From Pocillopora verrucosa (taxonomy: Eukaryota > Cnidaria > Anthozoa > Scleractinia > Pocilloporidae): 64,000 bases of DNA. The notes below the pieces were generated by a model. It was not told the origin of the DNA. It saw only the letters and a list, made by a program, of their open reading frames with translations, and did no database searches. The position numbers were made by a program, and so were the translations under genes. This document shows positions 16,901-56,948 of this stretch, one piece after another (positions within the stretch are counted from its first letter, which is position 1; every line of letters starts with the position of its first letter). The stretch spans positions 31,062,634-31,126,633 of the forward strand of contig NC_089314.1 of assembly GCF_036669915.1 (NCBI RefSeq), written 5' to 3'.

Positions 16901-19900
16901 CCTCTACCACTTCCAAATCTGATTTGTAATTCTCCTTACTGTCTGCCTTACAATTCTCATGATATTAGTTTGGAGAATTTGGTATTGGATTGGGTAAGAA
17001 TACTCTTAACTTATCTTTTTCTTTTTATCTCATCACTTGTCTGCTTGATATTGTATTGTACGGAAAAATTCTGTCTTGGTCACTTATAGAGGGGGATATT
17101 CAGGGGTTCTGAACACTGCAATACAGTTAAGAATTTGTTAATGAATATTTAGTCAGGTAGTTTTTATTTAAGTCTGTTTACAAAAGAATCAGAGTCTGGA
17201 AAAGGCTTGAGAAACAGTGGAGGACAAGAGAGTGTAACCTGTATCCTGCACGTTAGGAGAATACCGCAATAATGCAATTCCAGATTAATGAAATGACTGA
17301 AATACCAGGAGAAAAATTGTCCAAAATCCCAAAATCACAAACTCCAATGTTCCCCTCCTCATAGGAGAATTAATGCTGTGTTGTGCATTGATGCTTCTTG
17401 TATGGTTGCTATTGGGAAAATTAAGAGATCTGCTCCAATAAATTTATAGTTTGTATGGAAAAATAAGGATGCAAAATTTCAAATCACTTTTGCTTTCGAA
17501 GGTATCAAATGGATACGTACAATCTTAACTATACTAGAAACTGAAGCTTGGATAAACATCCCCTGAAACCAATGGTGTGCAGTTACTCACTCTGTGCGCT
17601 TACAATATATCTTTGTTAACTCAAAAAGCAATCCTCATCCATTCTGAGTAAAATCTAAATGACAACCGCCACCTCAATTGTTGGTTGCTTTAGAAAATTA
17701 ATTGGAATGTACAAAGCTAGAGATTGCATTCATTTATAACCTTTTCCAACATAAAAGACAATCTAACAGCAAAACAAACACAAGCACTTAAAAAAACTTT
17801 TAGCACCAACAACAAGATAAATCTTAAAAACACTGACAAAGGAATCACTATTGTTAGAAAAGATACTAAACATAAAATTCAGGAAGGTTACAAACAAGTC
17901 CTTAATGAGAAATTCTATAACCCCCTAATATAAGCAATAGTATCTGAAACAGTCACAAAAGTCAAAACAATTTGTCAACACTTTGTTCACTAGAAGGCAT
18001 ATTGATGACATGGCCTGTAAGTGGCTCAATTTAGGCCAAAACCACCTAGAATACCAGAATTTCACACACTGACCAAAGTACATGAAATCATTCCTGTTGA
18101 CAATCAATCTTATCTTGGAGCACTGGCCCAACAGAGCACATTTCCATCTTTGTTGACTCACACTTATAACCGATTGAGCAGAAACAACAGTCTTATATCA
18201 AAGACACCACTCATTTTATAAACTTCAACAAAAACATCCTACTTCCAGAAGAAGCAATTTGGGTACTTTTGACATTTGTTCTCTCCACACTAACATTCCC
18301 CAAGAGGAGGGAATTAATATCATCTGCCAATATTATGAAGAGCATTATAGTTAAAATCTCTCATCACAACAAAATTTTGGGAGACCTTAAGAGACTGCTT
18401 CTTAAAGAAAACTTTTTCAATGACAAAGACAAACACTATCTAGAAACACTCGGAATAGCTCTAGGAACAAAAAAATGATAATAGATAGAGGTCATGTTCA
18501 TGGCTCATACTGAGAAACAGGTACTAGCTACGTATATACAAGCCCACCTAAACTATTTCTTTAACCCTTTGACCCCCTAGGAGTGACTAGCATCTAATTT
18601 CTCCCTACAATATCAGCCCTGAATCACACAGTAAGGTCAGGAGAATAAAGTAATTGACCATCAACTAATTAAGCTCTTGATCATTTAACAAATTCTCCGT
18701 ATCAGCATCTTTGGAAATGTATAGAGAATAGTAGGGAGAATATGCATACTGATGTTTGGCTGTAGAGGGTTAAAAAGATATATTCATAACACTTTTTAAG
18801 GTGGACCATTCCTGAAATTGAAATCATCAATTTCATTGATAACAGTAACTCATTCCACGCCACTATTAAATTCATGTATGAATTGTCATCAGAAAAAATG
18901 GTTTTCCTCGATACTGAAGTTTTTAAAGGACCTAGATTTACCAAAAGAAAAATTCTTGATGTTCAAACACATTACAAGCTGAAAGAAACATGCCAATATA
19001 CTTGATCCCTCCCTTTCAATGTTAAGAAGAGTTATGGTAAAGGATATGCACTACACTTATTGAGAACAAACTCAGTAAAAGAATCTTATGACTAAAAGAA
19101 GAAAACTTCATAGAATGTTCTTATAGAACAAGGCAAGGCTCAGGACCTTGTTGAAAAGACCCTAGCAGAAGTACAATTCTTATCATGCAACAAGCCTTTA
19201 AAAAGCAAACCAAAAACATCTAAAAAAGATTTTGTTGTTCACTAAAACTTTTAACCCTGCTGACAAGAATCTTAAAAAGATTCTTATGAAACACTAGCAC
19301 CTTACTTTGGGCCATGAAAACCTGGCGCAAATATATCCTATCCCCCAACTGTTGCTTATTGGAAGGACAGGTTTGTATAAGATTCCCTTGTTAGAGCACA
19401 ACTTCCTTCACTTAAATTAAACAACAGCATTTTTGAAGTTATTCACTGTTAGGGTCTGGTGACAATACTACAACACTATAACAACTTGTCAAGGAAACTT
19501 CCTAATAACAATTAAAATATCAGAGGTTGTAACATTTAGGATTTGTACTTGCTGCAGGGCATAATTTTAAAAGTTGTAATCCACTTTGTCTCACTCATCA
19601 GTTTCCAGTAGTAAGAAAAAATCAAAGCAATGTATATTTAAATTACGCTGACCATCAACAAAATAAGGAAACGGGTATTGTCACTGTCTGCACATGACTG
19701 GGTGTTAGATATTGTTTACTACCATAATCATTGATAGTATTTCGACATTTTTCCCCGGCCTCTCCCTCTTGACTCCTCTTCGATCCGAACATTACACATT
19801 CAAGCTCTATATCACACAAATTTAAAATTTGAACTCAAGTTCCGTCATAACAAAGACGAACCGGAATATTACTCATATTTGAAAATAAACAACCATCACC

Positions 19901-20487
19901 ATAACCATTCGCTACTTTCATTATTTCTTACGAACAACATGGAGCGCCTCATAAATTAAATGTCGATGTAAATTTTTAAAATAGTGTTGTTTGCCGAGTG
20001 TGGATGCTCGCGAGAAGATAAATTTGTAAGTATTAGATACATACCTAAAAAATTATCGCCTCGTTCCTCGTCATCTGAGTAATTAAAGTTGAAGAGAAAC
20101 TGCAAAATAGAAAATCTCAGTGAAACAAAATAGAAACCAACGCGAGGAACGATCGAAAATTAAAGCGTGAGTAAATATTGTCTCGACGTGAAGTATAACA
20201 TAAACCTAAAAATAAAAACAATTTCCCAGACGTAGGTATAATAAAAAGATCTAGTAAGCTAATTTTTACCTCAACCGGTGGTATGTTTCCAATTTGAGCT
20301 AATGAATTACTGAAGTATTTTTCCCATTCTTCAGCTGTGAAATCGCCAAACGTAAAACCCTGAGACACGCAAGAACAAGAAATTTTAGGACACGTCTTGG
20401 TTGAATTCAATTCCGTTTGTACAACAAGTGATAACGAGGAATATAAGGCAAATCTGCCATTTTTCTTACCTCTTCCGAATTACGCAT
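7658..20487 (-). CDS. USP10: Ubiquitin carboxyl-terminal hydrolase 10, complete 17-exon gene
   Basis: Exons in gene order: 20487-20470, 20359-20270, 20099-20045, 16844-16550, 15630-14810, 14674-14590, 14178-14091, 13402-13299, 12997-12954, 12527-12421, 11887-11788, 11455-11319, 11012-10887, 10255-10169, 9996-9855, 8375-8310, 7845-7658. The coding length is 2553 nt and every phase fits, giving 850 residues (human about 798). The start MRNSEE runs into FGDF (residues 10-13), the known G3BP-binding motif. A basic tract (about 187-198) and a Ser-rich disordered region follow. The catalytic domain has the Cys box GNWCYINA (Cys about 480), [15 protein letters not shown] and the His box GGHY (His about 801). 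Human USP10 is a cytosolic deubiquitinase acting on p53 and other clients and modulating stress granules. The exon 7 acceptor (AAAG) is the weakest splice call. Confidence 0.93.
7922..7971. repeat. (CAGC)n microsatellite
   Basis: About twelve tandem CCAG/CAGC units in the last intron of USP10, between the exons at 7658-7845 and 8310-8375. Confidence 0.95.
8540..9660. repeat. GACT-based minisatellite in a USP10 intron
   Basis: About 1.1 kb of GACT tetranucleotide runs punctuated by a recurring segment with GAACGAGCTTAGTCA or its GAATAAGCTTAGTCA variant. The higher-order period is roughly 45-60 bases. It lies between exons 9996-9855 and 8375-8310 of USP10. Because the unit has few stops on the minus strand, a 136-codon open frame arises there (8964-8554); it is repeat-derived and not a gene. 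Confidence 0.95.
13540..13745. repeat. TTAACCC-family dispersed repeat (copy 1, USP10 intron 8)
   Basis: It starts TTAACCCTTTAAGCCC and contains the segments TTCTCCTTACAGT, GAATTTGGTATTGGAT and CATCACTTGTCTGC. These recur in the window (16915-17075, 18561-18773, 27876-28040 and the duplicated copies). I recognise it as a short non-autonomous repeat frequent in coral DNA. It is also present at 39471-39690 in the second block. Confidence 0.7.
13927..14060. repeat. Foldback MITE-like element, about 134 bp
   Basis: The ends are inverted repeats of about 45 bases, from GATCAATATCAGTATCTGGG to its complement at the right end, around a short unique centre. It has no coding capacity. It lies 30 bases downstream (minus strand) of USP10 exon 7, which carries the catalytic Cys box. 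The same element is at 42082-42215 in the second block. Confidence 0.88.
14684..14790. repeat. (GACA)n/(GATA)n microsatellite filling USP10 intron 5
   Basis: CAGACAGACAGA and CAGATAGACAGA runs. Intron 5 (14809-14675) is only 135 bases, so most of the intron is microsatellite. The second block has the same arrangement at 42837-42940 with small length changes. Confidence 0.9.
16015..16165. repeat. Short inverted-repeat fragment with GTTGATAA ends
   Basis: The ends carry ATCAACT followed by GTTGATAA and, about 130 bases later, the complementary arrangement. The left part resembles the sequence at 31617-31680 next to a Penelope-like fragment, so it may be a Penelope-derived terminal piece. It is in USP10 intron 4 and is also present at about 44170-44310. 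Confidence 0.5.
16915..17075. repeat. TTAACCC-family repeat fragment (USP10 intron 3)
   Basis: It shares TTCTCCTTACTGTCTGCC, GAATTTGGTATTGGATT and CATCACTTGTCTGCTTGATA with the repeat at 13540-13745, in the same orientation. Its left end is truncated. The second block has it at about 45065-45220. Confidence 0.65.
17724..19440 (+). pseudogene. Decayed Penelope-like reverse transcriptase in USP10 intron 3
   Basis: Broken plus-strand frames carry recognisable Penelope-like RT blocks in order: [13 protein letters not shown] (about 17845), [15 protein letters not shown] (about 18045), a degenerate LPEEAIW and TNIP-like block (about 18250), [19 protein letters not shown] (about 18420-18477) and MVFLDTEVF (about 18900-18930). 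Frameshifts and stops separate them, and a TTAACCC-type repeat (18561-18773) splits the element. It is antisense to USP10. The family is distinct from the intact element at 39867-42075. The corresponding remnant at 46285-47700 shows that insertion and decay began before the duplication. Confidence 0.7.
18561..18773. repeat. TTAACCC-ended MITE-like repeat
   Basis: The left end is TTAACCCTTTGACC and the right end is GAGGGTTAA, forming short terminal inverted repeats. The inside has the TTTCTCCCTACAATATCAG segment of the family. It is inserted in the decayed Penelope-like RT. The counterpart is at 46855-47065. Confidence 0.75.
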
Positions 20488-22828
20488 TTCTTGAGCCACA
20501 AGAGTGCTCAATTAACTAGCACTCAAATTCTCCATTGGACAAAATTTCCCTTAAAAACCCTCAACCTAAACACATCAACTTGCTTCTTCCATTTTGCAAG
20601 ACAGGCGCATGAGCTGTGAGAACGTGTGACGTCAGTTATCGTCCCTATCCCGTGAAATCCCGAAACCTCACGAAATAACATGAACCGGGATATCATTGGG
20701 CGCACGATCATAACATCGTTGCTTTTTCTTTTTTTTATCATCGAAACAGCTGACCAATTTTGCGTGTACAGGTGTATGCTGGTAAGAAGTCAGTGTCAAT
20801 ATGAAAAAAAGAGCTCTGCTGATTTACAGAATTTGCAAAGGAAAAATGGTTGCATTCAGAGCCGAAAATGACTGGAATACTAAATTAGCTTAGTATGTTC
20901 CCTGCTTGGGTAGTGTGTTACTTTGTCATTGGTGTATTTTTGGGGTCGATTCCTTGAAGTCTACGTAGTTTTCGTTCTTGCCCTTCTATTCTATTGAATG
21001 AAATAAAAATAATCTGACAGCACATGTGGCTACTGGTACAGCACAATTCTTAAAGAACAAGCTAAAGGTTGTATGATGACGCTAGAAGGTAGTGTTGCAG
21101 AAAATTTGTAATCACACACAAAACAGAAAACCCACCGCATCCCACTCATTTAAGAGTACCCTGTTCCACGAGAGAAAATTGATTCAAGAATATAGGGGTT
21201 AGCTCGAAAGCCTCACGGTTCCCCTATCCTCTGGGCTCCAAAAATAATAAAGCTTCATTTAATTTTGCCTTCTGGCAGGTTCTAAGCTTGCTGTGAGCTA
21301 GTCAAACTCGCAAAGAAATTAACATGACGATCAGAATTCTCCTCTTCCATGTTTTCTGCTAGCTGATGGTTGATCTACATCCAATTTGGTTAACAAGGAA
21401 AGCGCCCAGGGTTCACTCAGTCTTTCACTTGAAGCGGTTAAATATAACATTTATCAACAATTTTTATTTCTTGCACCTAAACAGAAACAAGACACCGATC
21501 TGGTACGGAATAATAGCACTTTTTCGTTCAATTTACAAAAATCATGTATTTAAATAGTCAAAATATCTTTTTCCTTCTTACAGTTGGTGCACCATAGCCC
21601 TCGGCGCAGCTTATTTTGGTGTGTAGGTATCTCTGATGATCGACGGTTAAGTGTTTGGGTATCTCTCACGGTTGACGGTTAATTTTTAAGAATAAACGTT
21701 CTTCATAAAACGTTAAAATATCTTTACAAAATTTGAGTAAACCAATTTTCGGCAAAAATTTGTTTTCAGCAAAATTCCCGAAGAAAAGTGTATTACCCTT
21801 TACCCGCCGACAAATCAGAAGAAAATATAACAAGATAACAGCTCAAAGAACATTTGAGTTGAGTCCGACTTTGATTTCTTCAGATTTGTTGTTTGTTGTA
21901 TTCAAGTGTCTATTTGCCGGATAAAGCTTTTGAGGTAACTTGAAAACCTTTTTTCTTTTTTTTTATCTTTTTTTTCATAACTATTGGTCAGCAGCACGGT
22001 TAACGGTAACAATGTTACATTTATGACGATTTACCACATTGAGACCGTCATGAGGCGGGGGCGAAAGTTATTTTATTTCAGAAGAGCAAGCATTCTTTTG
22101 ACACAGAGAGAACGAGCATCTAAGTAATAAGACTCGTTATTGTTATTTGGAAAATACAAGGATACTTTACGGTGATGCAAATCCCTTAAAAAATTCCAGT
22201 GGAAGACATATGAAATGATATGACAGTCGAGTCAGATACATGGTTTCGCTTTCGTACGGGAATGTCTTTCATTTCCTCACTGAAAAGTCACACTCTGCTG
22301 TAACACGAGCGAAAAGAGAAAACATGTAACTTAGCAGACTCTTTGTAAAAATAAAAGTCGAGGTACCATGCCTCCTATTAAGGAGCTTTCATACTCAGTA
22401 GAAAGCCCCGGACTAAGGCAAAGGTAAACTTGAAGAGTTATCAGCGACAGTTCACAATTTCTTTTGTCGTGACGCTTCTATTTGCTTCAGAAAGCGAAAT
22501 ATCTCTCCCTACTTGTAATTGTTTCTTTTGCGCCTCTCTCAACGACATAGAATCTCACGCACTAAAAATAAAGAAAATTTGAACCAGCCGACACATTTAT
22601 CTGTCCATTTCAGTTTTCTATGTCAGTTTCCGATATCAGAAAGAAAATGATGGCGTGCGTGAATAAACCATTGACAGCCGGCATAAGTTTGCCAATAGTT
22701 AAAATCGTATTTTTGTCATGATCAAACTTAAAAATCTGACACAATCTTTAACCGGAAGTCCACAACCAAAGCTGTAGAGCAAATTTGATCTCATCGAAAA
22801 CAGCGAAAATACAAACAGTACTGAAACG
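20488..22828. other. Shared upstream region between divergent USP10 and NLR-A
   Basis: About 2.3 kb between two head-to-head start codons. I see no convincing coding frame. It should hold the 5' UTRs and promoters of both genes. Compared with 48774-50969, most of it is nearly identical. The second block lacks roughly 80 bases near 21370-21460 and some bases near 21660 and 21920, so short open frames there (21366-21557, 21733-21924) are not conserved and are unlikely to be genes. Confidence 0.6.
20627..20634. promoter_or_regulatory. CRE-like palindrome TGACGTCA upstream of USP10
   Basis: A perfect CREB/ATF consensus 140 bases upstream of the USP10 start codon. It is also kept in front of the broken copy at 48913-48920. 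It is a plausible promoter element for the minus-strand gene. This is inferred from position and consensus only. Confidence 0.4.
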
Positions 22829-25800
22829 ATGGATTTTCTCAAGGAATCACTTGCACCAAGAACCTTCAGCAAAATTAGCTATGCCTTAGTTTTAATTTGG
22901 TTCGTGATCAGTGTAATTTTCTTTGGCATTTTTGCCGAAGTGGAAAATACCGAATCCAGGTACGATTTCCGTTGCGGTGGCACCAAGAGTGAAAACATCG
23001 ACCTTATCCGTGGGGAATGTTTCGAAAAATACCAGAAGCAATACAACAAGTACGGTGTTCCTGTCTATGGCTTCGTGATCATCAATTTCCTCCTTATTGC
23101 AATTGTATGTGTTATCTACTCCCAAATAGTGAAAAACGCAGTCGATCATTTGTCGTCGAGCAGTCGTAACAGTGATCCAGAGAGCGGACAGTCGCGCGAC
23201 CAAGAAAACCCAACAGGACAAACAACAAATTGCGGACACAAGCTTTTCATAGCTTACTGTTGTCAACTATCTACGAGACTTGTTCTAGGAGTTCTCTTCA
23301 TATTGCTGCAAACTCAGTTGCTTTATCCTTTAAAGTTTTCCTCCACGTTTGAATGTTACTTGAACTCTGGAACCAATCAGCCGAGGAATTCATCGAACGC
23401 CGCCCCAAACAGTACTTTACACAAATGTCACAATCAACGAGCGATAAAGAAAACCTTTTGGATGAACGCTGTCCTTGCAGTGAATGGAATTTTTGACGCT
23501 GGCATTCTGATTGAAATCGTCTACATTTTGACACAGGCATGGATAAAAAGGAAATTTATGCAAGACTCAGACTTTCTAAAAACCTATCTAAATGCTAACC
23601 ATGACAAGTCGCATAATGTTCTTAAACAGCCAGAGGGAACGAGCGGACATGATAAGCCTCAACAGCTTCAACCATTCACAGAACGAACGAAGAAAATCAT
23701 CAAAGAAGACACCCAATGCCTCTACGAACTCCAATCACCGTTTCGACGTCCTCCAGGCGCAGAAACAGAAGCCACAGATTTGACTTTGGATCAGATTTAC
23801 ACAAACCTTGTGATCATTCCCAACAGGGTTACGTACAACTTTACTACAGACAGACAAGAACAACTCAAAGTTTATCCAAGGTCGCGCGACGAAGAATCAC
23901 ATTCGAAAGGCCTGGAAGACCTCCTAAATGATAAAAATAAAAAGGTATTGATCGTCGGTCGCCCCGGAATCGGCAAAACATTATGTTGCATCAAACTTCT
24001 CAGAGACTGGGCATTTGAGAAAGTCAAATCCCAAATCCAATTTGATGCTGCTTTCTTCGTAAAGTTCAGAAGATTCAACTCGGCAGACGACCTTAGCCTT
24101 AGGGAACTACTCACTCGGTCAGAACATTCCACCTCAGATCACCTGGATGATGAGGTCTGGAATTACATCCTGCAGCACCCTAAAGGTGTCCTCATACTTT
24201 TTGACGGATTTGACGAATTCAAAGATAACGCAAACATGGCCGTGGCGCCTTCTCATCCCGGAAACATTAAAGACAAGATGCCGCTACAAATCCTTTATCA
24301 GTGGCTTGTGACCGGGAAACTTCTTGAAGATGCTTCAATTGTAACGACTACTAGACCTACGGCTTTGACCGGTATCGCACATCTTAATTTCGACAAAACT
24401 TTTGAAATCTTAGGGTTTTCAACCGAGCAAATTCAAGAGTATATCAACAAATTCGCCGGAGTTGACAATCAAGTAGGCGAAACACTATGGCGACACATCA
24501 GCAGCAACATGAACTTACTTTCGCTCTGTTATGTCCCTGTGAACAGCTTCATCGTATGCTCAAGTCTGTCACAAATATTGCAGTTCGAAAGTTCCGCTAG
24601 TGTTACCCTCCCTTCCAAATTAACCACGATATACAAGATTGCAGTGAAAGTATTTTATTTCAAACACACGAAAGAATTCCGCGATAAACATTTTACCCGC
24701 GAAGACTTTCTATCAGATGATTTGCCCTCGGCTATGGAGGGGGAATTCGAGAAACTAGGAAAAGTGGCGTTTGAAGGAATCAAAGAAGGAAAACTGATCC
24801 TTGGAGGAAACGAAGTACGCGAAATGAAAGACAGCGCCCTTTTTCACCGCTTACCCGACCGTGAAAATGCCGCGTTAAAAGATGAGAAACAATTCTGTTT
24901 CATTCACCTAACAATGCAAGAATTTTTAGCAGCGCGGCACCTGACAAACAACATGACAGAAAGAGAATTAAGGAACTTTGTTTCAGAAAACATCGAGAAC
25001 GGCAAATGGCAGCTGGTTTTTCAGTTTCTGGCGGGACTAATGGAGGAGAAAAACCACCTACCAAGCGAAATCATCACTGACCTTCTTCCTGTGCAAACTG
25101 AAGAGAAAAAAAACGAAGCCGAAGAAAGCGAAGACAAAATGGTGACCTGCTGGCCGACTAAAGACGAAAAGGATTTAGCAGTGACATTGCTTAAATGTAG
25201 TTACGAAAGTAATACGATGGAGTCGATAGTTCAGAGAAAACTACAACAAATTAACTTTAATTGTGTAAATTTTATTGATTGTCACCTCACAGCTGTTGGT
25301 TGCCCTTCCGTAGTAAATATAATTAAGAATGTTCAACAAATTTCACATTTAGATTTGAGTTTCAATAACATTGGTCCATTAGGTTCTTTTGAGATTTGTA
25401 AATTGTTAAACTATAGGGAATTTCAACTGAGCTCGTTAAACCTCACAAGAAATCAACTGACAGATGAAGCAGCAAAGTATTTGGCTGAAGCCATCAACAG
25501 CAACAACAGTCAGCTACGCACGTTAAACCTCTCAAAAAATAATATCTCAACAATCGGAGCACGGCACTTGGCTGAAGCTATCAACAACAACTGTCAGCTA
25601 CGCACGTTAAACCTCTCACACAATAACATCTCACACATTGGAACACGGCACTTGGCTGAAGCTATCAACAACAACAACTGTCAGCTACGCACATTATACC
25701 TCAGCGCAAGTAACATCTCAGACTTTGGAGCACGGTACTTGGCTGACGCCATTAATAACAACAGTCAGCTACGCACGTTAAACCTCTCAGAAAATAACAT

Positions 25801-26569
25801 CTCTGAGATTGGAGCACAGCACTTGGCTAAAGCCATCAACAACAAAAACTGTCAGCTATGCACGTTAAGTCTCTGGTTAAATGACATCTCAGACATTGGA
25901 GCACGGCACTTGGCTGACGCCATCAACAACAACTACTGTCAGCTACACACGTTAGACCTCTCAGACAATCACATCTCACACATTGGAGCACAACACTTGG
26001 CTGAAGCCATCAACAACAACAACTGTCAGCTACACACGTTAGACCTCACATACAATAACATCTCAGACATTGGAGCACAACACTTGGCGGACGCCATCAA
26101 CAACAACAACAACTGTCAGCTACGCACATTAGACCTCTCACACAATAACATCTCAAACATTGGAGCACAACACTTGGCGGACGCCATCAACAACAACAAC
26201 TGTCAGCTACGCACATTAGACCTCTCACACAATAACATCTCAAACATTGGAGCACAGCACTTGGCTGACGCCATCCACAACAACAACTGTCAGCTACGCA
26301 CATTAAACCTCTCACACAATAACATCTCAAACATTGGAGCACAACACTTGGCGGACGCCATCAACAACAACAACTGTCAGCTACACACGTTAAACCTCTC
26401 ACACAATAACATCTCAAACATTGGAGCACAGCACTTGGCTGACGCCATCCACAACAACAACTGTCAGCTACGCACGATAAACCTCTCAAACAATCAACAC
26501 ATAACAAATGCAGGTAAGCAAAAGGCACGTAAATTACTTGGCGATAGTCGGTGTACGCTTATTCTTTAG
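22829..26569 (+). CDS. NLR-A: four-TM (innexin/connexin-like) NACHT-LRR protein, 1246 aa
   Basis: A single-exon frame; the ATG at 22829 is in good context (AAACGATGG). TM1 is about 16-36, loop 1 has Cys49 and Cys64, TM2 about 80-100, cytosolic loop to about 145, TM3 about 147-168, loop 2 has Cys176 and Cys200 with N-glycosylation sequons at 187 and 194, and TM4 about 211-236. A linker leads to a NACHT ATPase: Walker A GRPGIGKT (377-384), Walker B ILFDGFDE (456-463) and a TTTRPTAL sensor. A winged-helix-like region with FCFIHLTMQEFLAARHL follows, then about 13 ribonuclease-inhibitor-type LRRs from about residue 850. Inferred: a membrane-anchored innate immune sensor with a channel-like N-terminus and cytosolic NACHT-LRR. 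No signal peptide is seen. The closest known layout is LRRC8, which lacks NACHT. The function is unproven. Confidence 0.88.
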   Translation: MDFLKESLAPRTFSKISYALVLIWFVISVIFFGIFAEVENTESRYDFRCGGTKSENIDLIRGECFEKYQKQYNKYGVPVYGFVIINFLLIAIVCVIYSQIVKNAVDHLSSSSRNSDPESGQSRDQENPTGQTTNCGHKLFIAYCCQLSTRLVLGVLFILLQTQLLYPLKFSSTFECYLNSGTNQPRNSSNAAPNSTLHKCHNQRAIKKTFWMNAVLAVNGIFDAGILIEIVYILTQAWIKRKFMQDSDFLKTYLNANHDKSHNVLKQPEGTSGHDKPQQLQPFTERTKKIIKEDTQCLYELQSPFRRPPGAETEATDLTLDQIYTNLVIIPNRVTYNFTTDRQEQLKVYPRSRDEESHSKGLEDLLNDKNKKVLIVGRPGIGKTLCCIKLLRDWAFEKVKSQIQFDAAFFVKFRRFNSADDLSLRELLTRSEHSTSDHLDDEVWNYILQHPKGVLILFDGFDEFKDNANMAVAPSHPGNIKDKMPLQILYQWLVTGKLLEDASIVTTTRPTALTGIAHLNFDKTFEILGFSTEQIQEYINKFAGVDNQVGETLWRHISSNMNLLSLCYVPVNSFIVCSSLSQILQFESSASVTLPSKLTTIYKIAVKVFYFKHTKEFRDKHFTREDFLSDDLPSAMEGEFEKLGKVAFEGIKEGKLILGGNEVREMKDSALFHRLPDRENAALKDEKQFCFIHLTMQEFLAARHLTNNMTERELRNFVSENIENGKWQLVFQFLAGLMEEKNHLPSEIITDLLPVQTEEKKNEAEESEDKMVTCWPTKDEKDLAVTLLKCSYESNTMESIVQRKLQQINFNCVNFIDCHLTAVGCPSVVNIIKNVQQISHLDLSFNNIGPLGSFEICKLLNYREFQLSSLNLTRNQLTDEAAKYLAEAINSNNSQLRTLNLSKNNISTIGARHLAEAINNNCQLRTLNLSHNNISHIGTRHLAEAINNNNCQLRTLYLSASNISDFGARYLADAINNNSQLRTLNLSENNISEIGAQHLAKAINNKNCQLCTLSLWLNDISDIGARHLADAINNNYCQLHTLDLSDNHISHIGAQHLAEAINNNNCQLHTLDLTYNNISDIGAQHLADAINNNNNCQLRTLDLSHNNISNIGAQHLADAINNNNCQLRTLDLSHNNISNIGAQHLADAIHNNNCQLRTLNLSHNNISNIGAQHLADAINNNNCQLHTLNLSHNNISNIGAQHLADAIHNNNCQLRTINLSNNQHITNAGKQKARKLLGDSRCTLIL
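25480..26500 (+). repeat. LRR-coding tandem repeat array of NLR-A
   Basis: About a dozen units of 81-90 bases, each coding for an IGAQHLA(D/E)AI helix and an LRTLxLSxNN strand. A variable (AAC)n run gives 3-5 Asn per unit and so alters unit length. Units 8-12 are nearly identical in DNA, which implies recent gene conversion or unequal crossing over. Confidence 0.95.
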
Positions 26570-27403
26570 GCCTCAGCAATTCCAATTAAAAACTAAAAAG
26601 AAATTATTTGAACGACTTACTATTCAAAATAACTGCGAGGTGACCGGCTCAGTGACAATTACAACCCAAAAAGCTAAACGTGAATGAAGGCAAATTAAAT
26701 CTGTGAAGTGCTCAGAGCAGCGAGACTATTTGAACCGGATCGAAATGAAGAAAACAAACCAATGAACATGTTTATTGAGAACAAAGGATGTCAAACTTTT
26801 TATAAACGAACCAATAATATTGAAGTAAAAACACAAAGCTTCCTGCAGAGAAAACAAACAAACCTCGGACCTCTCAGGAAACTTTGTCATTTTATGAATG
26901 GTTACTCTCGATCCTAAATTATCTCCATGCTTGTGTCTGTTTTGATCGCGTGTGTCTTTCTCTAGGAATAGTTTCCTGTAGTGTTTATTGATGTTAATGT
27001 AGTGCAGATTGTAGGATACAACACATTTGTTTTAGTGCTCGATTTTTCTTCTGATCGAAGCGATCCGATTCAAGTAGTTTAAAATTTACTGCCATTGAAA
27101 TCCTACCGGAACTGTACGTAAACTCGTGGCGCTTCGTAGAAAAGTTCTTTTGGTAGGTTAGTGATGTGAGATTTATGTCATACTAGTTCGAAAATTTTTT
27201 TGGGGAGTTTCTGCAGTTGATGTAAATATTAATATATTTTTGTATATATTTAAGGCCTGTTTCTCAAATAATGTAATAATATGTCAATAAGTTGCTGTGC
27301 AAAATCAGAGGATGAAGCATCAGACTTATAGACAGTTAAAATTTTCACTTACAAGTATTTGTAAATGGAGCCTGAACTCCCAAATTTATTAGTGTAGAAT
27401 AAA
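26570..27403 (+). other. Probable 3' UTR of NLR-A with AATAAA at 27398-27403
   Basis: No coding frame of note. AATAAA occurs about 830 bases after the TAG stop. The same arrangement, with the same flanking sequence, follows NLR-B. Confidence 0.55.
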
Positions 27404-27875
27404 TGTTGTAAATGGATTTATACTTTGTGTTGTGATCTATTTATCCTCTATGATTAGTCACCAATTGAAAGCAATGGGGAGGGAGTAAGGGGAGGGTGTA
27501 GCCTTCTGAAAATCACTTCTAAAACCTCACTTCACTGCCACATAATCATGACAACATAGTAAAAAAAAGTGGCCCGGGAAATATACCTCTTGAGACTTCT
27601 TTCCATTTCTTTTAACACTTTTAATCTCCATTCCTTTGCAATTTCTTTATACTTAAAAATCATTTTGAAAATTTCCACAATTTTGGAAGAAACCACAACT
27701 CTAGATACAAAGTGAAACCCATCTGAAAAACCAGGTAATTAGAATTCCAGAGTCCAAACAAACAACTTTATTCAATAAACCTTTCAATTGAATTGAAATA
27801 AATGTTACAGAGTGACTGTGTGACTGTGTACTTAAAAATTTTGCTTCAGGACATCACTTTACCCCCACAAATATT

Positions 27876-28040
27876 AACCTTTTCAGTCCATGAAATGATC
27901 AATAAGTAATTTCTCCTCACAATCAAACACACCTTGAGTATACTTGTTTGATTAAATGCCAAATTCTCTGAGCTAAAATTAAAAGAAATGTATGTGAGAC
28001 TGAGGATAATTAATGTTTATGTCAAAACGGTTAAAGAGTT
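27876..28040. repeat. TTAACCC-family repeat, diverged copy
   Basis: It begins TTAACCTTTTCAGTCC, has TAATTTCTCCTCACAATC and CCAAATTCTCTGAGCT, and ends near ACGGTTAAAGAGTTA. This order matches the other family members at lower identity. The counterpart is at about 62925-63090. Confidence 0.5.
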
Positions 28041-28358
28041 AGCTGAAAACAATCTGAAAACCTTTTTACTGCCACCAATCAAGAAAAACAATTTGTCACT
28101 CTAGAAGTAGGAAAGTAAAAAGTAATCAATGAGTTACTCATGGATATTGCAAGGAACTGAATTTCACAGTTTTCAGAGGCACTCTGTTAAAAGTAACTTT
28201 GTGTATCAATTGGCTCGATTTTCTCTCCACAACAAGCAGACAAGGCATAGTTAGGGTAACATTAAGTTATGCACTCAATCTTTATTCTATTGTAGTCATT
28301 AAATGTGGAAGAGTGTTCTTCATTGTCGGCCTCTTGAGGTGATGGTTATTGTATGGAG

Positions 28359-28477
28359 CACAAAAGGAATGGCTCTGCAGGGATTGGTCTTCAAGAAGTT
28401 ACAATTAACAGCCATCCACAAGTGTGACATCAGCTGTGAAAGAGAAATCAGTTGCCCGATTTATAATTATGTGATTG
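28359..28477 (+). CDS. PAN/Apple-like domain exon (orphan, single exon seen)
   Basis: The frame reads GMALQGLVFKKL, then KCDISCEREISCPIYNYVIG. This fits the start of PAN/Apple domains of cnidarian secreted or membrane proteins: aliphatic strand, Cys-x3-Cys and Cys-x2-YNY. A strong donor (GTGAGA) follows at 28478. A possible acceptor is the AG at 28357-28358, but the 5' border is uncertain because the frame stays open back to 28303. I could not find the neighbouring exons. The second block has the same exon at about 63410-63528 with three amino-acid changes and the donor kept. It may be part of a gene or a remnant of one. Confidence 0.45.
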
Positions 28478-28486
28478 GTGAGAAGT

Positions 28487-28520
28487 CTTGAACTTGAACT
28501 TGAACTTGAACTTGTACTTA
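28487..28520. repeat. (GAACTT)n hexanucleotide repeat
   Basis: About five units here, but only two to three in the corresponding place at 63540-63556, so this short tandem repeat is length-variable. Confidence 0.85.
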
Positions 28521-28537
28521 GTCCAAGTTCTATTTAG

Positions 28538-29661
28538 AAGGAGAATCAATTGCTAATGATAGCACTATCCTGTCATATCTATTTTATAGACAGAAAGGCA
28601 GACATATGCCAGACATTTGTGCATATCAGTGAGATACTGTGGCAGGCAATTCAAGCATAAAAGCTTTCTGAAACTGCTATGATTAAGAAAAAATTAGGGC
28701 CAAATTTTCAAAGTTGGCTGACTTTAACAGTTATTTCCAGTACTTGGACTGGGTCTAGCTGAATTACTGAAACAGATTTACCTTGCCAAAGGGTTCAACT
28801 AACTTTATTGTCTTACTTTGGGAAAATTGAAGAAGAGGAAGAAGTTGTACACTTTTTATTTTGTAAAACTAAGCTTTTGGGGAACTTTTAGAAGGAAACC
28901 TTTATTAAGATTCCCTCTCAAATTTCTATAAAAAGCAGCAATCATTAATTACTGATGCAGTTTATGAAAAATACAAGAATTTTTTTTCATTGGATGAATT
29001 TACTTCAAGATTTTTAAGTACATGTTTATCTCAGCTCAGATACATTAATATGTAAATGATTGATTTTGTGTGGAACATGAAAAATTCCATCCTTTTCACA
29101 CAGTTCACCTTTTTGGCACTAGATTTTACAAGTTGGGTGTCACAACTTTTGATGTAAACAAACTGCAATAGTTCAGACAGAGTCAACCACTCACTACCCA
29201 TGTCTGAACTTTGGCTTCACTAAGTTGTCATAAATAATTTCACACTATCCTTAAGTATTAATCTTTGCTCAAAATTGACTTATTCATTTTATCATATGTT
29301 TTCAAGATTATATATCAAGCACATTATTATTTTGCTACCCATTGAGAGGATGCGAAGAATGTAACAGGAAACATTTTGGCTTGGATTAATCTAATGCTGA
29401 AAAGGTGAATTTTGAATCAAATAGTGGCAGCCATATTAGTTGTTTAAAGGAATTATACCATATCACAAGTAAAGTTTGAGTCACAAGTCAAGTTTGTGTC
29501 ACAAGTCAAGTTCGAGTCAATTCAAATTGTTTTTCTTCTTTGTTTGTTTTTATTTGATATGTGTCAAAATGATGTACCAGGGATTCAAGAACACTTAGTT
29601 TTATCGTAAGCTTAAAACGTTTTTCATGGCCATTTGCAAGGGTTAATTCAGCATTGATTCA
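28538..29661. other. Segment present only in the first block
   Basis: The second block joins TATTTAG directly to CAGCTCAG at 63576/63577, so these 1.12 kb are either an insertion here or a deletion there. The junction has only an AG of shared sequence. I see no intact gene. A weak frame near 28830-28900 looks like the Cys/His end of a LINE polymerase, but too little is left to call it. Confidence 0.65.
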
Positions 29662-30548
29662 CAGCTCAGTTTATAAAAGTTAACATTCCAGAGTATCTAC
29701 CGTTTCCCCCAGAGATTCCAACTTTTTTCCCTTTATTTTGCAAAACTGAGGCAGAAGTCCTTATGCTACAGCAAACCACCTAGACTTGCAGTGTAAAACC
29801 AATTTCTAGTACTTGACTGCCGTGTTGCATCCACAGGGATCCCATTCTCTCATTAGCCAAAATTGTGGAGAACATATGTATTCCTCTATAAAACGTTTGA
29901 TTCACCAGAATGATCAAGTTTAACTTTATTTGATTTTCTTGTGGTATATGGGTTTCACTTGCTCAAAACTTGTAAAGTGAGCCATGTTTCAAAATGATCA
30001 CATAATAATGTGTGGAATACAAAATGTATAATATGGACTGAGTAGTATGCATGAAAAAGAAGTTGAAAGTTAGCAAGTTAAATATCTTCCTTGTCAGAGC
30101 TTTAGTTATGGTTTCCACCAGGTTTTTAATATGTCTTAATGGACAATAACAGCCTTTGAAACATTTTGAAAACTCTGCAACAATTCTATAAGATGGACAA
30201 TAACAGCCTTTAAAACATTTTGTAAACTTTGTGACAATATTCTGTAAGGTGGAGAAAGGTCTAAGAGCCCTCAGCAACAATCTAGAATGCAAGAATCTTT
30301 GTATGCAGTGAAATCAAACCAGATGAAACAAGCTCTGTCAATTGAAGTGAAAAGTAAAAAACTTCATTAAATGATCAGGTTTCCATTTCTTGCTTTAACT
30401 TTTTGGTGGCTAAAATAATAGCATATTGCCTTACAATGTTATTTTTCAAAGAGGAGAAAAATTTAAGTTCATTTGAACTTGACTCATGACTGGAGCTTGA
30501 CTTGAGCTCAAAGTTGACTTGTGAAATGGTATAACTCTGTTTAACATC
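29441..30548. repeat. Imperfect inverted repeats flanking about 1 kb
   Basis: The left arm at about 29441-29530 (AATTATACCATATCACAAGT and following) matches the complement of about 30465-30548. The part in between has two roughly 54-base direct repeats near 30142-30249 with GGACAATAACAGCCTTT. There is no coding capacity. It could be a non-autonomous foldback element. Confidence 0.45.
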
Positions 30549-50969: not shown

Positions 50970-53900
50970 ATGGATTTTCTCAAGGAATCACTTGCACCAA
51001 GAACCTTCAACAAAATTAGCTATGCCGTAGTTTTAATTTGGTTCGTGATCAGTGTAATTTTCTTTGGCATTTTTGCCGAAGTGGAAAATACCGAATCCAG
51101 GTACGATTTCCGTTGCGGTGGCACCAAGAGTGAAAACATCGACCTTATCCGTGGGGAATGTTTCGAAAAATACCAGAAGCAATACAACAAGTACGGTGTT
51201 CCTGTCTATGGCTTCGTGATCATCAATTTCCTCCTTATTGCAATTGTATGTGTTATCTACTCCCAAATAGTGAAAAACGTAGTCGATCATTTGTCGTCGA
51301 GCAGTCGTAACAGTGATCCAGAGAGCGGACAGTCGCGCGACCAAGAAAACCCAACAGGACAAACAACAAATTGCGGACACAAGCTTTTCATAGCTTACTG
51401 TTGTCAACTATCTACGAGACTTGTTCTAGGAGTTCTCTTCATATTGCTGCAAACTCAGTTGCTTTATCCTTTAAAGTTTTCCTCCACGTTTGAATGTTAC
51501 TTGAACTCTGGAACCAATCAGCCGAGGAATTCATCGAACGCCGCCCCAAACAGTACTTTACACAAATGTCACAATCAACGAGCGATAAAGAAAACCTTTT
51601 GGATGAACGCTGTCCTTGCAGTGAATGGAATTTTTGACGCTGGCATTCTGATTGAAATCGTCTACATTTTGACACAGGCATGGATAGAAAGGAATTTTAT
51701 GCAAGACTCAGACTTCCTAAAAACCCATCTAAATGCTAACTATGACAAGTCGCACCAAGAATCTCAAAAGCAGGATGATGTTCTACTTCAGCCAAGAGAA
51801 CATGAACGTCCTCCGAGTCCAATTCAAGAACCTCGAAAACAAGATGCAGTTGTCCCACTACAGCCACGAGACCAAGTCGTGCCGCATCATGTTCTTAAAC
51901 AGCCAGAAGGAACGAGCGGACATGATAAGCCTGAACAGCTTCAACCATTCATAGCACGAACGAAGAAAATCATTAGAGAAGACACTCAATACCTCTACGA
52001 ACTCCAATCACCGTTTCGACGTCCTCCAGGCGAAGAAAAAGAAGCCACAGATTTGACTTTGGACCAGATTTATACAAACCTTGTGATCATTCCCAACAGG
52101 GCTCAGTACAATTTTACTACAGACAGACAAGAGCAACTCAAAGTTTATCCAAGGTCGCGCGACGAAGAATCACATCCGAAAAGCCTGGAAGACCTCCTTA
52201 ATGATAAAAATAAGAAAGTGTTGATTGTCGGTCGCCCCGGAATCGGCAAAACATTATGTTGCATCAAACTTCTCAGAGACTGGGCATTTGAGAAAGTCAA
52301 ATCCCAAATCCAATTTGATGCTGCTTTCTTCGTAAAGTTCAGAAGATTCAACTCGGCAGACGACCTTAGCCTTAGGGAACTACTCACTCAGTCAGAACAT
52401 TCCACCTCAGATCACCTGGATGATGAGGTCTGGAATTACATCCTGCAGCACCCTGAAGGTGTCCTCATACTTTTTGACGGATTTGACGAATTCAAAGATA
52501 ACGCAAACATGGCCGTGGCGCCTTCTCATCCCGGAAACATTAAAGACAAGATGCCGCTACAAATCCTTTATCAGTGGCTTGTGACCGGGAAACTTCTTGA
52601 AGATGCTTCGATTGTAACGACTACTAGACCTACGGCTTTGACCGGTATCGCACATCTTAATTTCGACAAAACTTTTGAAATCTTAGGGTTTTCAACCGAG
52701 CAGATTCAAGAGTATATCAACAAATTCGCCGGAGTTGACAATCAAGTAGGCGAAACACTATGGCAACACATCAGCAGCAACATGAACTTACTTTCGCTCT
52801 GTTATGTCCCTGTGAACAGCTTCATCATATGCTCAAGTCTGTCACAAATATTGCAGTTCGAAAGTTGCGCTAGTGTTACCCTCCCTTCCAAATTAACCAC
52901 GATATACAAGATTGCAGTGAAAGTATTTTATTTCAAACACACGAAAGAATTCCGCGATAAACATTTTACCCGCGAAGACTTTCTATCAGACGATTTGCCC
53001 TCGGCTGTGGAGAAGAAATTCGAGAAACTAGGAAAAGTGGCGTTTGAAGGAATCAAAGAAGGAAAACTGATCCTTGGAGGAAACGAAGTACGCGAAATGA
53101 AAGACAGCGCCCTTTTTCACCGCTTACCCGACCGTGAAAATGCCGCGTTAAAAGATGAGAAACGATTCTGTTTCATTCACCTAACAATGCAAGAATTTTT
53201 AGCAGCGCGGCACCTGACAAACAACATGAAAGAAAGAGAATTAAGGAACTTTGTTTCAGAAAACATCAAGAACGGCAAATGGCAGCTGGTTTTTCAGTTT
53301 CTGGCGGGACTAATGGAGGAGAAAAACTACCTACCAAGCGAAATCATCACTGACCTTCTTCCTGTGCAAACTGAAGAGAAAAAAAACGAAGCCGAAGAAA
53401 GCGAAGACAAAATGGTGACCTGCTGGCCGACTAAAGACGAAAAGGATTTAGCAGTGACATTGCTTAAATGTAGTTACGAAAGTAATAAGATGGAGTCGAT
53501 AGTTCAGAGAAAACTACAACAAATTAACTTTAATTGTGTAAATTTTATTGATTGTCACCTCTCAGCTGTTGGTTGCCCTTCCTTAGTAAATGTAATTAAG
53601 AATGTTCCACAAATTTCACATTTAGATTTGAGTTTCAATAACATTGGTCCATTAGGTTGTATTGAGATTTGCAAATTGTTTAAATATTGGGAATTTCAAC
53701 TGCGCTCGCTAAACCTCACAAGAAATCAACTGACAGATGAAGCAGCGAAGTATTTAGCTGAAGCCATCAACAGCAACAACAGTCAGCTACGCACGTTAAA
53801 CCTCTCAGAAAATAATATCTCACGCATCGGAGCACGGCACTTGGCTGAAGCTATCAACAGCAACTGTCAGCTACGCACGTTAAACCTCTCACACAATAAC

Positions 53901-54926
53901 ATCTCACACATTGGAACACGGCACCTGGCTGAAGCTATCAACAACAACAACTGTCAGCTACGCACATTATACCTCAGAGCGAGTAACATCTCAGACTTTG
54001 GAGCACGGTACTTGGCTGACGCCATTAACAACAACAGTCAGCTACGCTCGTTAAACCTCTCAGAAAATAACATCTCTGAGATTGGAGTACAGCACTTGGC
54101 TAAAGCCATCAACAACAAAAACTGTCAGCTACGCTCGTTAAACCTCTCAGAAAATAACATCTCAGACATTGGAGCACAGCACTTGGCTAAAGCCATCAAC
54201 AACAACAACTCTCAGCTACACGCGTTACACCTCTCAGACAATAACATCTCAGACATTGGAGCACAGCACTTGGCTGACGCCATCAACAACAACAACTGTC
54301 AGCTACGTGAGTTATACCTCTCACACAATAACATCTTAGACATTGGAGCACAGCACTTGGCTGAAGCCATCAACAACAACAACTGTCAGCTACGTGAGTT
54401 ATACCTCACACACAATAACATCTCAGACATTGGAGCACAGCACTTGGCTGAAGCCATCAACAACAACAACTGTCAGCTACGCGTGTTATACCTCTCAGAC
54501 AATATCATCTCAGACATTGGAGCACAGTACTTGGCTGAAGCCATCAACAACAACAACTGTCAGCTACGCGTGTTATACCTCTCATTAAATTACATCTCAG
54601 ACATTGGAGCACAGCACTTGGCTGAAGCCATCAACAACAACAACTGTCAGCTACGTGAGTTATACCTCTCACACAATAACATCTCAGACATTGGAGCACA
54701 GCACTTGGCTGAAGCCATCAACAACAACAACTGTCAGCTACGCGTGTTATACCTCTCAGAGAATAACATCTCAGACATTGGAGCACAGTACTTGGCTGAA
54801 GCCATCCACAACAACAACTGTCAGCTGCGCACGTTAAACCTCACAACAAATCAACACATGACAAATGCAGGTAAGCAAAAGGCACGTAATTTACTTAGCG
54901 ATTGTCGATGTAAGCTTATTCTTTAG
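50970..54926 (+). CDS. NLR-B: four-TM (innexin/connexin-like) NACHT-LRR protein, 1318 aa
   Basis: An intact single-exon paralog of NLR-A. The four TM segments, the two Cys per extracellular loop and the loop-2 sequons are unchanged. After TM4 it has about 45 extra linker residues rich in Gln, Pro and charged residues, with repeated LQPR. The NACHT domain is nearly identical: GRPGIGKT, ILFDGFDE, TTTRPTAL. The LRR part has about 14 units. The first five align with NLR-A, while later ones carry LRELYLS or LRVLYLS where NLR-A has LRTLDLS or LRTLNLS. Unlike the neighbouring USP10 copy it has no stop or frameshift, which points to selection for function. Inferred role as for NLR-A. Confidence 0.88.
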   Translation: MDFLKESLAPRTFNKISYAVVLIWFVISVIFFGIFAEVENTESRYDFRCGGTKSENIDLIRGECFEKYQKQYNKYGVPVYGFVIINFLLIAIVCVIYSQIVKNVVDHLSSSSRNSDPESGQSRDQENPTGQTTNCGHKLFIAYCCQLSTRLVLGVLFILLQTQLLYPLKFSSTFECYLNSGTNQPRNSSNAAPNSTLHKCHNQRAIKKTFWMNAVLAVNGIFDAGILIEIVYILTQAWIERNFMQDSDFLKTHLNANYDKSHQESQKQDDVLLQPREHERPPSPIQEPRKQDAVVPLQPRDQVVPHHVLKQPEGTSGHDKPEQLQPFIARTKKIIREDTQYLYELQSPFRRPPGEEKEATDLTLDQIYTNLVIIPNRAQYNFTTDRQEQLKVYPRSRDEESHPKSLEDLLNDKNKKVLIVGRPGIGKTLCCIKLLRDWAFEKVKSQIQFDAAFFVKFRRFNSADDLSLRELLTQSEHSTSDHLDDEVWNYILQHPEGVLILFDGFDEFKDNANMAVAPSHPGNIKDKMPLQILYQWLVTGKLLEDASIVTTTRPTALTGIAHLNFDKTFEILGFSTEQIQEYINKFAGVDNQVGETLWQHISSNMNLLSLCYVPVNSFIICSSLSQILQFESCASVTLPSKLTTIYKIAVKVFYFKHTKEFRDKHFTREDFLSDDLPSAVEKKFEKLGKVAFEGIKEGKLILGGNEVREMKDSALFHRLPDRENAALKDEKRFCFIHLTMQEFLAARHLTNNMKERELRNFVSENIKNGKWQLVFQFLAGLMEEKNYLPSEIITDLLPVQTEEKKNEAEESEDKMVTCWPTKDEKDLAVTLLKCSYESNKMESIVQRKLQQINFNCVNFIDCHLSAVGCPSLVNVIKNVPQISHLDLSFNNIGPLGCIEICKLFKYWEFQLRSLNLTRNQLTDEAAKYLAEAINSNNSQLRTLNLSENNISRIGARHLAEAINSNCQLRTLNLSHNNISHIGTRHLAEAINNNNCQLRTLYLRASNISDFGARYLADAINNNSQLRSLNLSENNISEIGVQHLAKAINNKNCQLRSLNLSENNISDIGAQHLAKAINNNNSQLHALHLSDNNISDIGAQHLADAINNNNCQLRELYLSHNNILDIGAQHLAEAINNNNCQLRELYLTHNNISDIGAQHLAEAINNNNCQLRVLYLSDNIISDIGAQYLAEAINNNNCQLRVLYLSLNYISDIGAQHLAEAINNNNCQLRELYLSHNNISDIGAQHLAEAINNNNCQLRVLYLSENNISDIGAQYLAEAIHNNNCQLRTLNLTTNQHMTNAGKQKARNLLSDCRCKLIL
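53750..54850 (+). repeat. LRR-coding tandem repeat array of NLR-B
   Basis: Units of about 81-87 bases with CATTGGAGCACAGCACTTGG cores and (AAC)n runs. Units 8-13 are almost identical in DNA but differ from the matching NLR-A units, so each array has been homogenised separately. Confidence 0.95.
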
Positions 54927-56705: not shown

Positions 56706-56918
56706 TGTGAGAGATTATTCAGCGTTAATTGATTTCCGGTTGATTTTTTGCGATAAGTGACAGATGATTGAACAATAGGATCATATTATATATTTAAAAT
56801 GAGAGAGACCAGAGCGTGGGACAGAGAACGGTGAGAGAGAGCGGGAGATTAAGTTGATTTTATAAAATAAAACGTGAAGTTTCGGAACATAGCAGATTCT
56901 TTAGTCTCATTTCCGACA
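56706..56918 (+). repeat. 5' LTR of the BEL/Pao element
   Basis: 213 bp starting TGTGAGAG and ending CCGACA. TATATATTTAAAA-like sequence in the middle may be the TATA region, and a TAAAATAAAA tract near the end may serve in 3' processing. It is identical by eye to the 3' LTR. Confidence 0.95.
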
Positions 56919-56921
56919 CAG

Positions 56922-56938
56922 TGGCACCTCCGACGGGA
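56922..56938 (+). other. Primer binding site
   Basis: TGGCACCTCCGACGGGA starts three bases after the LTR. The TGG start is complementary to a tRNA 3' CCA end. The tRNA was not identified. Confidence 0.6.
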
Positions 56939-56948
56939 CGCGCGAAGC

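Follow-up and report, generated by a model that had tools for sequence, protein, structure and literature searches.

A connexin-like four-helix membrane domain joined to NACHT and LRR domains in a family of stony-coral NLR proteins

The window analysed here is a 64-kb stretch of the Pocillopora verrucosa genome. On its forward strand lies NLR-A (22829..26569), a single unbroken frame of 1246 codons from ATG to stop, with no in-frame ATG between the upstream stop and its start. Residues 1-245 (22829..23563) form a connexin-like four-transmembrane (4TM) domain, assigned by PF00029, by a predicted model searched with Foldseek, and by hhalign. The predicted model and hydropathy place its helices TM1 at residues 13-40 (22865..22948), TM2 at 79-113 (23063..23167), TM3 at 129-165 (23213..23323), and TM4 with its extension at 203-245 (23435..23563). 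A sequence-only reading of this DNA had described four hydrophobic helices near the N-terminus, and hydropathy bears this out with four segments before residue 245 (11-41, 74-106, 139-170, and 210-239). The same reading had noted two cysteines per loop and glycosylation sequons in the second loop, and both are present: C49 (codon 22973-22975) and C64 (codon 23018-23020) in loop 1 (22973..23020), and C176 and C200 at the ends of loop 2 (23354..23428). N187 and N194 of loop 2 are the only N-X-S/T sites within residues 1-260.

Downstream in this frame come the NACHT ATPase and the leucine-rich repeats that had also been read there, each above its Pfam cut-off. The NACHT match (PF05729; residues 373-542; 23945..24454) scores 102.3 bits against a cut-off of 26.7 and contains the Walker A motif GRPGIGKT at residue 377, and the array of similar LRRs (residues ~860-1240; 25406..26548) scores 117 bits with LRR_6 against a cut-off of 23.4. 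Between them lies an NLRC4_HD2-like helical region (residues 693-795; 24905..25213), which Pfam reports under its cut-off. The sole further stretch above the hydropathy threshold is at residues 562-584, C-terminal of the NACHT match. A public P. verrucosa gene model, P0002 (1131 aa), is identical to NLR-A along its entire length and has the same joining of 4TM domain and NACHT; residues 934-1048 of the LRR array are absent from it.

A second copy, NLR-B (50970..54926, forward strand), occupies a neighbouring duplicated block as an unbroken frame of 1318 aa. Its 4TM domain (residues 1-245; 50970..51704) is 98% identical to that of NLR-A, and the whole protein matches PF00029 with an E-value of 1.4e-4 (22.1 bits). 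Indeed, dozens of 4TM-NLR frames exist in the Pocillopora genome, together with one stand-alone connexin-like ORF (on C1). The close copies considered below number 21, namely the two in the window and 19 chosen from the genome matches, each of the latter being a single unbroken frame of 1005-1442 aa. All 21 keep the four loop cysteines, four of them carrying one extra cysteine in loop 2, and two cysteines per loop are found in every one of the 19 rows of a further alignment, A5. The 4TM-NACHT-LRR fusion is therefore not a chance arrangement, since it recurs in the second window copy and in 19 unbroken frames with the four cysteines constant. Among 29 copies, 25 have the Walker A pattern and 28 the Walker B pattern, every copy having at least one of them. 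Named taxa among the database matches are Pocillopora, Stylophora, Desmophyllum, and Oculina; a search with the stand-alone ORF returned three proteins only. No protein named connexin occurs in the best 120 of the 411 matches, nor in a second list of 113, most of which are nameless.

The 4TM domain matches connexins, and not innexins or pannexins, in both sequence profile and predicted fold. The domain of NLR-A (residues 1-250) matches PF00029 with an E-value of 2.3e-6 and 28.0 bits, under the curated cut-off of 31.3, which relatives in the same genome exceed, with scores such as 40.0 and 39.1 bits; in a genome-wide search, 6 of 40 matches lie above it. When Pfam was run on 55 chosen members at E ≤ 0.01, Connexin was found in all 55, Innexin (PF00876) in none, and the LRRC8 model Pannexin_like (PF12534) in one (E 0.0081). 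Searches of PDB sequences at E ≤ 10 gave a similar picture: with the most divergent coral set connexins made up 34 of 38 matches, and the top 34, while galanin receptors and photosystem chains, two of each, supplied the other four (E 0.76-2.3), and none of three coral profiles retrieved an innexin, pannexin, or LRRC8 chain. Moreover, the best E-value fell as the coral sets grew more divergent, from 1.8e-3 to 3.2e-4 to 1e-5. Chance hydrophobic similarity is disfavoured both by this strengthening of the match and by its specificity across the genome. In profile-profile comparison, hhalign gave a probability of 96% with connexins and of 1.4% with an innexin of the same coral genome, the latter being one partial sequence only. 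An innexin or pannexin origin thus has the Pfam, hhalign (with that one partial innexin), and PDB sequence searches against it. The sequence-only reading was right that a large-pore-channel type of 4TM domain is fused to NACHT-LRR, and wrong in taking innexins and pannexins as the nearest family.

It was its side remark on a connexin-like DFRC and second loop that proved to be the important lead. The coral domain shares with connexins the DFxC motif and an R/K-T and an E before and in TM4. In each loop its two cysteines (C49/C64 and C176/C200) align with connexin cysteines 1 and 3 (C53/C64 and C169/C180 in Cx26), so the two-per-loop pattern, once likened to that of innexins, is better read as a connexin set from which the middle pair is missing. 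The predicted fold agrees with the profiles: a template-free model built from the coral sequences has the four-helix connexin fold, and connexins account for 50 of the 50 Foldseek matches listed. A fold from a single sequence was poor (pLDDT 57) and was left out of the analysis. The intron-free coding region typical of connexins is found here too, judged from the DNA, with 4TM, NACHT, and LRR in one frame. This is nevertheless not a canonical connexin, for only two of three cysteines are kept per loop and the window copy falls under the Pfam cut-off. Tetraspanins and claudins, which had been named as families to check, were absent from the 22 Pfam families found in the 55 members (E ≤ 0.01) and from the window (E ≤ 1). 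A weak 7tm_1 match was seen in the window domain (E 0.0032, under the cut-off) and in 4 of the 55 members; these matches, like the galanin-receptor and photosystem ones, lie far beneath Connexin, and a tetraspanin, claudin, or GPCR reading was rejected. We infer that the coral domain and connexins are of common descent.

What could such a domain do at the head of an NLR? The reading that we favour, with some reserve, is that these proteins are membrane immune receptors whose own connexin-type hemichannel opens upon NACHT oligomerisation. By analogy with connexins, both termini would be cytosolic, and NACHT-LRR would therefore lie inside the cell, while two disulfides, C49-C200 and C64-C176, would link the loops. 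Ligand binding by the LRRs and ATP exchange in NACHT would lead to oligomerisation, which would assemble or open a putative connexin-like hemichannel made of a ring of subunits; the open pore might then let Ca2+ and other ions through and ATP out, and cause cell death or raise an alarm. Because the connexin-like membrane domain and the NLR body share one frame, the sensor is predicted to open the pore itself.

A rival explanation is that the domain is a mere anchor tethering the NLR to the plasma membrane or to an internal one, such as that of the symbiosome, its pore function having been lost. The Connexin score of the window copy beneath the cut-off, the absence of the middle cysteine pair, and the variability of E39 and D46 in the most divergent copies would all fit an anchor, as would the fact that pore formation is a prediction. 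Yet the whole fold has been retained, with both loops and with the four cysteines in all close copies and A5 rows; the acidic residues E39, E42, and D46 adjoining TM1 are present across the 21 close copies; and the median dN/dS of 0.40 among these indicates purifying selection (182-208 of 210 pairs kept after removal of any with dS ≤ 0.05, under 30 codons, or distances that were undefined). For the LRRs, dN/dS is only an approximate figure, as these repeats are similar to one another and undergo turnover. Since a plain anchor requires neither the kept fold and cysteines, nor the acidic residues, nor purifying selection, we regard it as unlikely.

Another possibility is that the domain docks between touching cells, forming a channel that is gap-junction-like or senses contact and is gated by NACHT-LRR, for example in the isolation of infected cells or in allorecognition. 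The likeness to connexins speaks for this, as does the absence of a loop-2 sequon from the stand-alone ORF and from 4 of the 18 other A5 rows. However, loop-2 sequons are present in all 21 close copies and in 14 of the 19 A5 rows, a third cysteine pair is missing, and loop glycans are held to block docking in pannexins, according to part of one survey (PMC8769644). Docking is thus quite improbable, and in most NLR copies the loop-2 sequons point towards an undocked hemichannel and away from a gap junction between cells. Very improbable, finally, is derivation of the domain from an innexin, pannexin, or LRRC8 protein with convergence on connexins within the large-pore channel fold, given the contrast between Connexin and the Innexin and Pannexin_like models across the 55 members, the low hhalign probability with the partial coral innexin, and the PDB matches.

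If the hemichannel reading holds, an animal NLR with a built-in channel could do without adaptor or gasdermin; one polypeptide would both sense and permeabilise the membrane, as plant resistosomes do, through another kind of pore. The reading would also offer a concrete candidate for the coral reaction to microbes and symbionts. A connexin-homologous coral domain would bear on how connexins arose by pushing the fold far back and supplying an outgroup. Surveys, in the parts drawn on here, place connexins in chordates only, with none in cnidarians and a de novo origin in early chordates (PMC8769644, PMC6391747). The case seems to us evenly balanced that the connexin channel was already present in early animals and is no chordate invention, that in dozens of stony-coral NLRs it serves as a built-in effector which NACHT opens directly once the LRRs sense a pathogen, and that a stand-alone coral connexin survives alongside.

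Among known systems, connexins (PF00029; Cx31.3/GJC3, Cx32, Cx26, and Cx43 in the PDB) are alike in profile, four helices, predicted fold, cysteines 1 and 3 of each loop, DFxC, the R/K-T and E at TM4, and a one-frame coding region. They have three cysteines per loop where the coral domain has two, and the coral copies differ further in the loop-2 sequons of most, in having NACHT-LRR as the C terminus, and in their cnidarian host. Innexins and pannexins (PF00876) resemble the coral domain in four helices, two cysteines per loop, and loop sequons, but no sequence-profile relation was detected, and innexin genes have coding introns. LRRC8 volume-regulated anion channels, to our knowledge, are without a NACHT ATPase, and their Pannexin_like model matches a single coral member. 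Other animal NLRs, including cnidarian ones with unusual N-terminal domains, as parts of two papers describe them (PMC8260672, PMC10236652), share the NACHT and Walker motifs, the helical region, and the LRRs; the word connexin is absent from the main texts of both, as far as these were available, and the titles and abstract openings of open-access PMC articles yielded no report linking connexin to coral or cnidarian NLRs. Like animal NLR genes, the coral genes form large tandem families with fast-evolving LRRs; they differ in their N-terminal effector, which is a multi-pass membrane domain of channel type. In plants, the oligomer of NLR resistosomes such as ZAR1 itself forms a cation-permeable membrane pore, in which N-terminal helices of a soluble protein insert as a new funnel. 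The coral protein would likewise make its own pore, but with a ready four-helix channel domain, as predicted here.

The NLR-A frame at 22829-26569 (+) runs uninterrupted for 1246 residues and encodes, from N- to C-terminus, a 245-residue four-helix membrane domain (4TM), a linker, a NACHT domain (residues 373-542; PF05729, 102.3 bits), a helical part and an LRR array. The fusion of a 4TM domain to NACHT-LRR, proposed in the sequence-only reading, is thus borne out in a single frame, with the membrane topology of the protein being a prediction. The public P. verrucosa gene model P0002 is identical to NLR-A but lacks residues 934-1048 of the LRR array. This array (25431-26499) consists of similar repeats, offset by 87 bp and about 84-88% identical within the gene, and this similarity looks like a sign of repeat turnover.

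A second copy, NLR-B, at 50970-54926 (+), sits within the neighbouring block of a tandem segmental duplication (10150-30085 versus 31905-64000), in which each block carries one NLR copy and the matching stretches, broken by insertions, are 94.9-98.8% identical. Further copies lie on the same contig (C3) beyond the window, up to about 31.33 Mb. A Ser/Lys-rich ORF of 263 aa is also duplicated (14796-15587 (-) and 42948-43739 (-)); its first copy, scanned against Pfam, had no match at E<=0.001. The window also holds the polyprotein of a BEL/Pao-type retrotransposon at 56874-61775 (+), with Peptidase_A17, RVT_1 and integrase, and, at 39998-41332 (-), a reverse transcriptase that matches a GIY-YIG endonuclease weakly and that we take to be a Penelope-like element.

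The 4TM domain is very probably homologous to connexins, judging from profile comparisons. The best Pfam match of NLR-A residues 1-250 is Connexin (E 2.3e-6; 28.0 bits, under the 31.3 cut-off), and Connexin was found at E<=0.01 in 55/55 chosen members (the two window copies, 10 of 120 proteins from one list of relatives and 43 of 113 from another). In the same scan, the LRRC8 Pannexin_like model matched one member and Innexin none. Three coral profiles of growing divergence, built from overlapping rather than nested sets of 12, 16 and 19 sequences, were compared with PDB sequences at E<=10, where connexins made up 12/13, 29/30 and 34/38 of the matches, respectively. The best E-value improved from 1.8e-3 to 3.2e-4 and then to 1e-5, the best match of the 19-sequence profile spanning nearly the whole domain (27-226). 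True homology would be expected to show this trend, whereas a composition artefact should become diluted. Compared profile to profile with three connexins, the coral domain reached Prob 96.0 (pairwise E 4e-9) and, in a second comparison, 95.2. The connexin-like features noted earlier proved a good lead. The kinship with innexins and pannexins suggested at the same time is not supported: against a single partial innexin from this genome, the coral domain scored Prob 1.4 and 3.5, and connexins themselves scored 0.8. From these comparisons, we infer a common ancestor of the coral domain and connexins. Counting against this reading, Connexin at E<=0.5 is absent from the Pfam matches of five of eight very divergent copies; the other three have it at E 0.0027, 0.063 and 0.17.

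The family extends across the genome (353 Mb scanned). The NLR-A protein found at least 87 matches, a lower bound given that 37 of 435 candidates were scored. From among them, 19 further copies were chosen and retrieved, each a single frame of 1005-1442 aa. The Connexin model found 40 places at E<=0.01, six of them above the cut-off; 36 fall in frames of 898-1459 codons, a count by frame length and not by NACHT at each place. At one of the other four places (L009), the frame runs on into NACHT; at another (L017), NACHT starts in frame and then continues in another frame; the third (C7:5933870) is closely followed by a NACHT match downstream; and the fourth, C1:22326432, is an ORF that stands alone. 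Where frames were examined in full, the Walker A pattern was present in 25/29, the Walker B pattern in 28/29, and at least one of them in all 29. The innexin model, in a scan where introns can hide innexin exons, has a sole match at E<=0.01 (C11:12871452); a connexin-like NLR copy (C11:12929855) sits some 58 kb away, a closeness that may be due to chance.

The stand-alone ORF (L019:5349-6098 (-), or G000:C1:22326348-22327097) has 249 residues and matches Pfam Connexin at 39.1 bits with the first Met left off, above the cut-off. No NACHT was seen in ORF translations of the 5.3 kb downstream and of a 10-kb stretch past a 5 kb unfetched gap. A 96% identical protein, from a source labelled lgn, has 109 member sequences, so the ORF does not appear to be a one-off fragment; it is possibly a coral connexin proper. 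As a genome query, it matched 65 rows, and 49 of these lie within frames of at least 1000 codons. Among the matches are very divergent copies, 26-33% identical to it, on C13, C2, C3 and C14. Each of the eight fetched (L051-L058; C13, C2, C3:16.84 Mb and C14:4.62-4.66 Mb) combines the 4TM domain with a Walker A motif within a single frame; their 4TM-NACHT layout is unchanged, and all four cysteines are there. Pairwise identity in the most divergent alignment, of 19 rows including the stand-alone ORF, goes down to 18%.

Among the 21 close copies (the two in the window and the 19 fetched), median pairwise dN/dS is 0.40 for the 4TM domain, 0.44 for the linker, 0.26 for NACHT, 0.36 for WH/HD2 and 0.90 for the LRRs, the last being rough because the repeats are alike and turning over. 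On this pattern, the effector and motor are constrained while the sensor changes fast, which is what one would expect if the protein is an immune receptor. The most likely mechanism is that recognition by the LRRs would free NACHT, whose ATP-driven oligomerisation would bring the 4TM domains into a ring, or alter an existing one; a putative connexin-type pore would then open, with a flux of Ca2+ and ions, release of ATP, and either alarm or death as the outcome. That the protein is an NLR-gated hemichannel, with the ring, conductance and gating this entails, is somewhat favoured.

Judged by title and start of abstract, no report of a connexin fused to an NLR was found among the open-access papers searched. 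Earlier surveys, Welzel and Schuster 2022 (PMC8769644) among them, place connexins in chordates alone. Slivko-Koltchik 2019 (PMC6391747), in the part available, used the same Pfam family, reported connexins from vertebrates and tunicates only, and had Hydra as the cnidarian listed. In the main texts of two cnidarian NLR surveys (PMC8260672 and PMC10236652), the word connexin is absent, and the former reports predicted TM segments for TLRs and for C-type lectins. Automatic Connexin labels (PF00029.25) are present on many of these coral proteins in the database, apparently unremarked so far. The available portion of PMC5412853 describes three cysteines per loop in connexins versus two in innexins, glycosylation sites in innexin loops, and an intronless connexin coding region.

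Aligned to Cx26, C49, C64, C176 and C200 of NLR-A correspond to C53, C64, C169 and C180; D46-F47 to D50-F51; R204, K208 and T209 to R184, K188 and T189; E229 to E209; and, in one of two alignments, W24 to W24. Next to TM1, E39, E42 and D46 are retained in the 21 close copies; E39 and D46 are not conserved in most very divergent ones. Unlike connexins, the coral domain lacks the middle cysteine in each loop. In the Cx26 structure, these middle cysteines pair together (C60-C174), so the coral domain would lose one disulfide as a unit and keep two. Sequons in loop 2 occur in 21/21 close copies and in 14 of the 19 rows of the most divergent alignment; the stand-alone ORF has none in its loops, loop 2 included. 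In pannexins, such loop glycans are held, in the part of Welzel and Schuster 2022 (PMC8769644) available, to block docking, and by this analogy the coral protein would more likely form a hemichannel than a gap junction.
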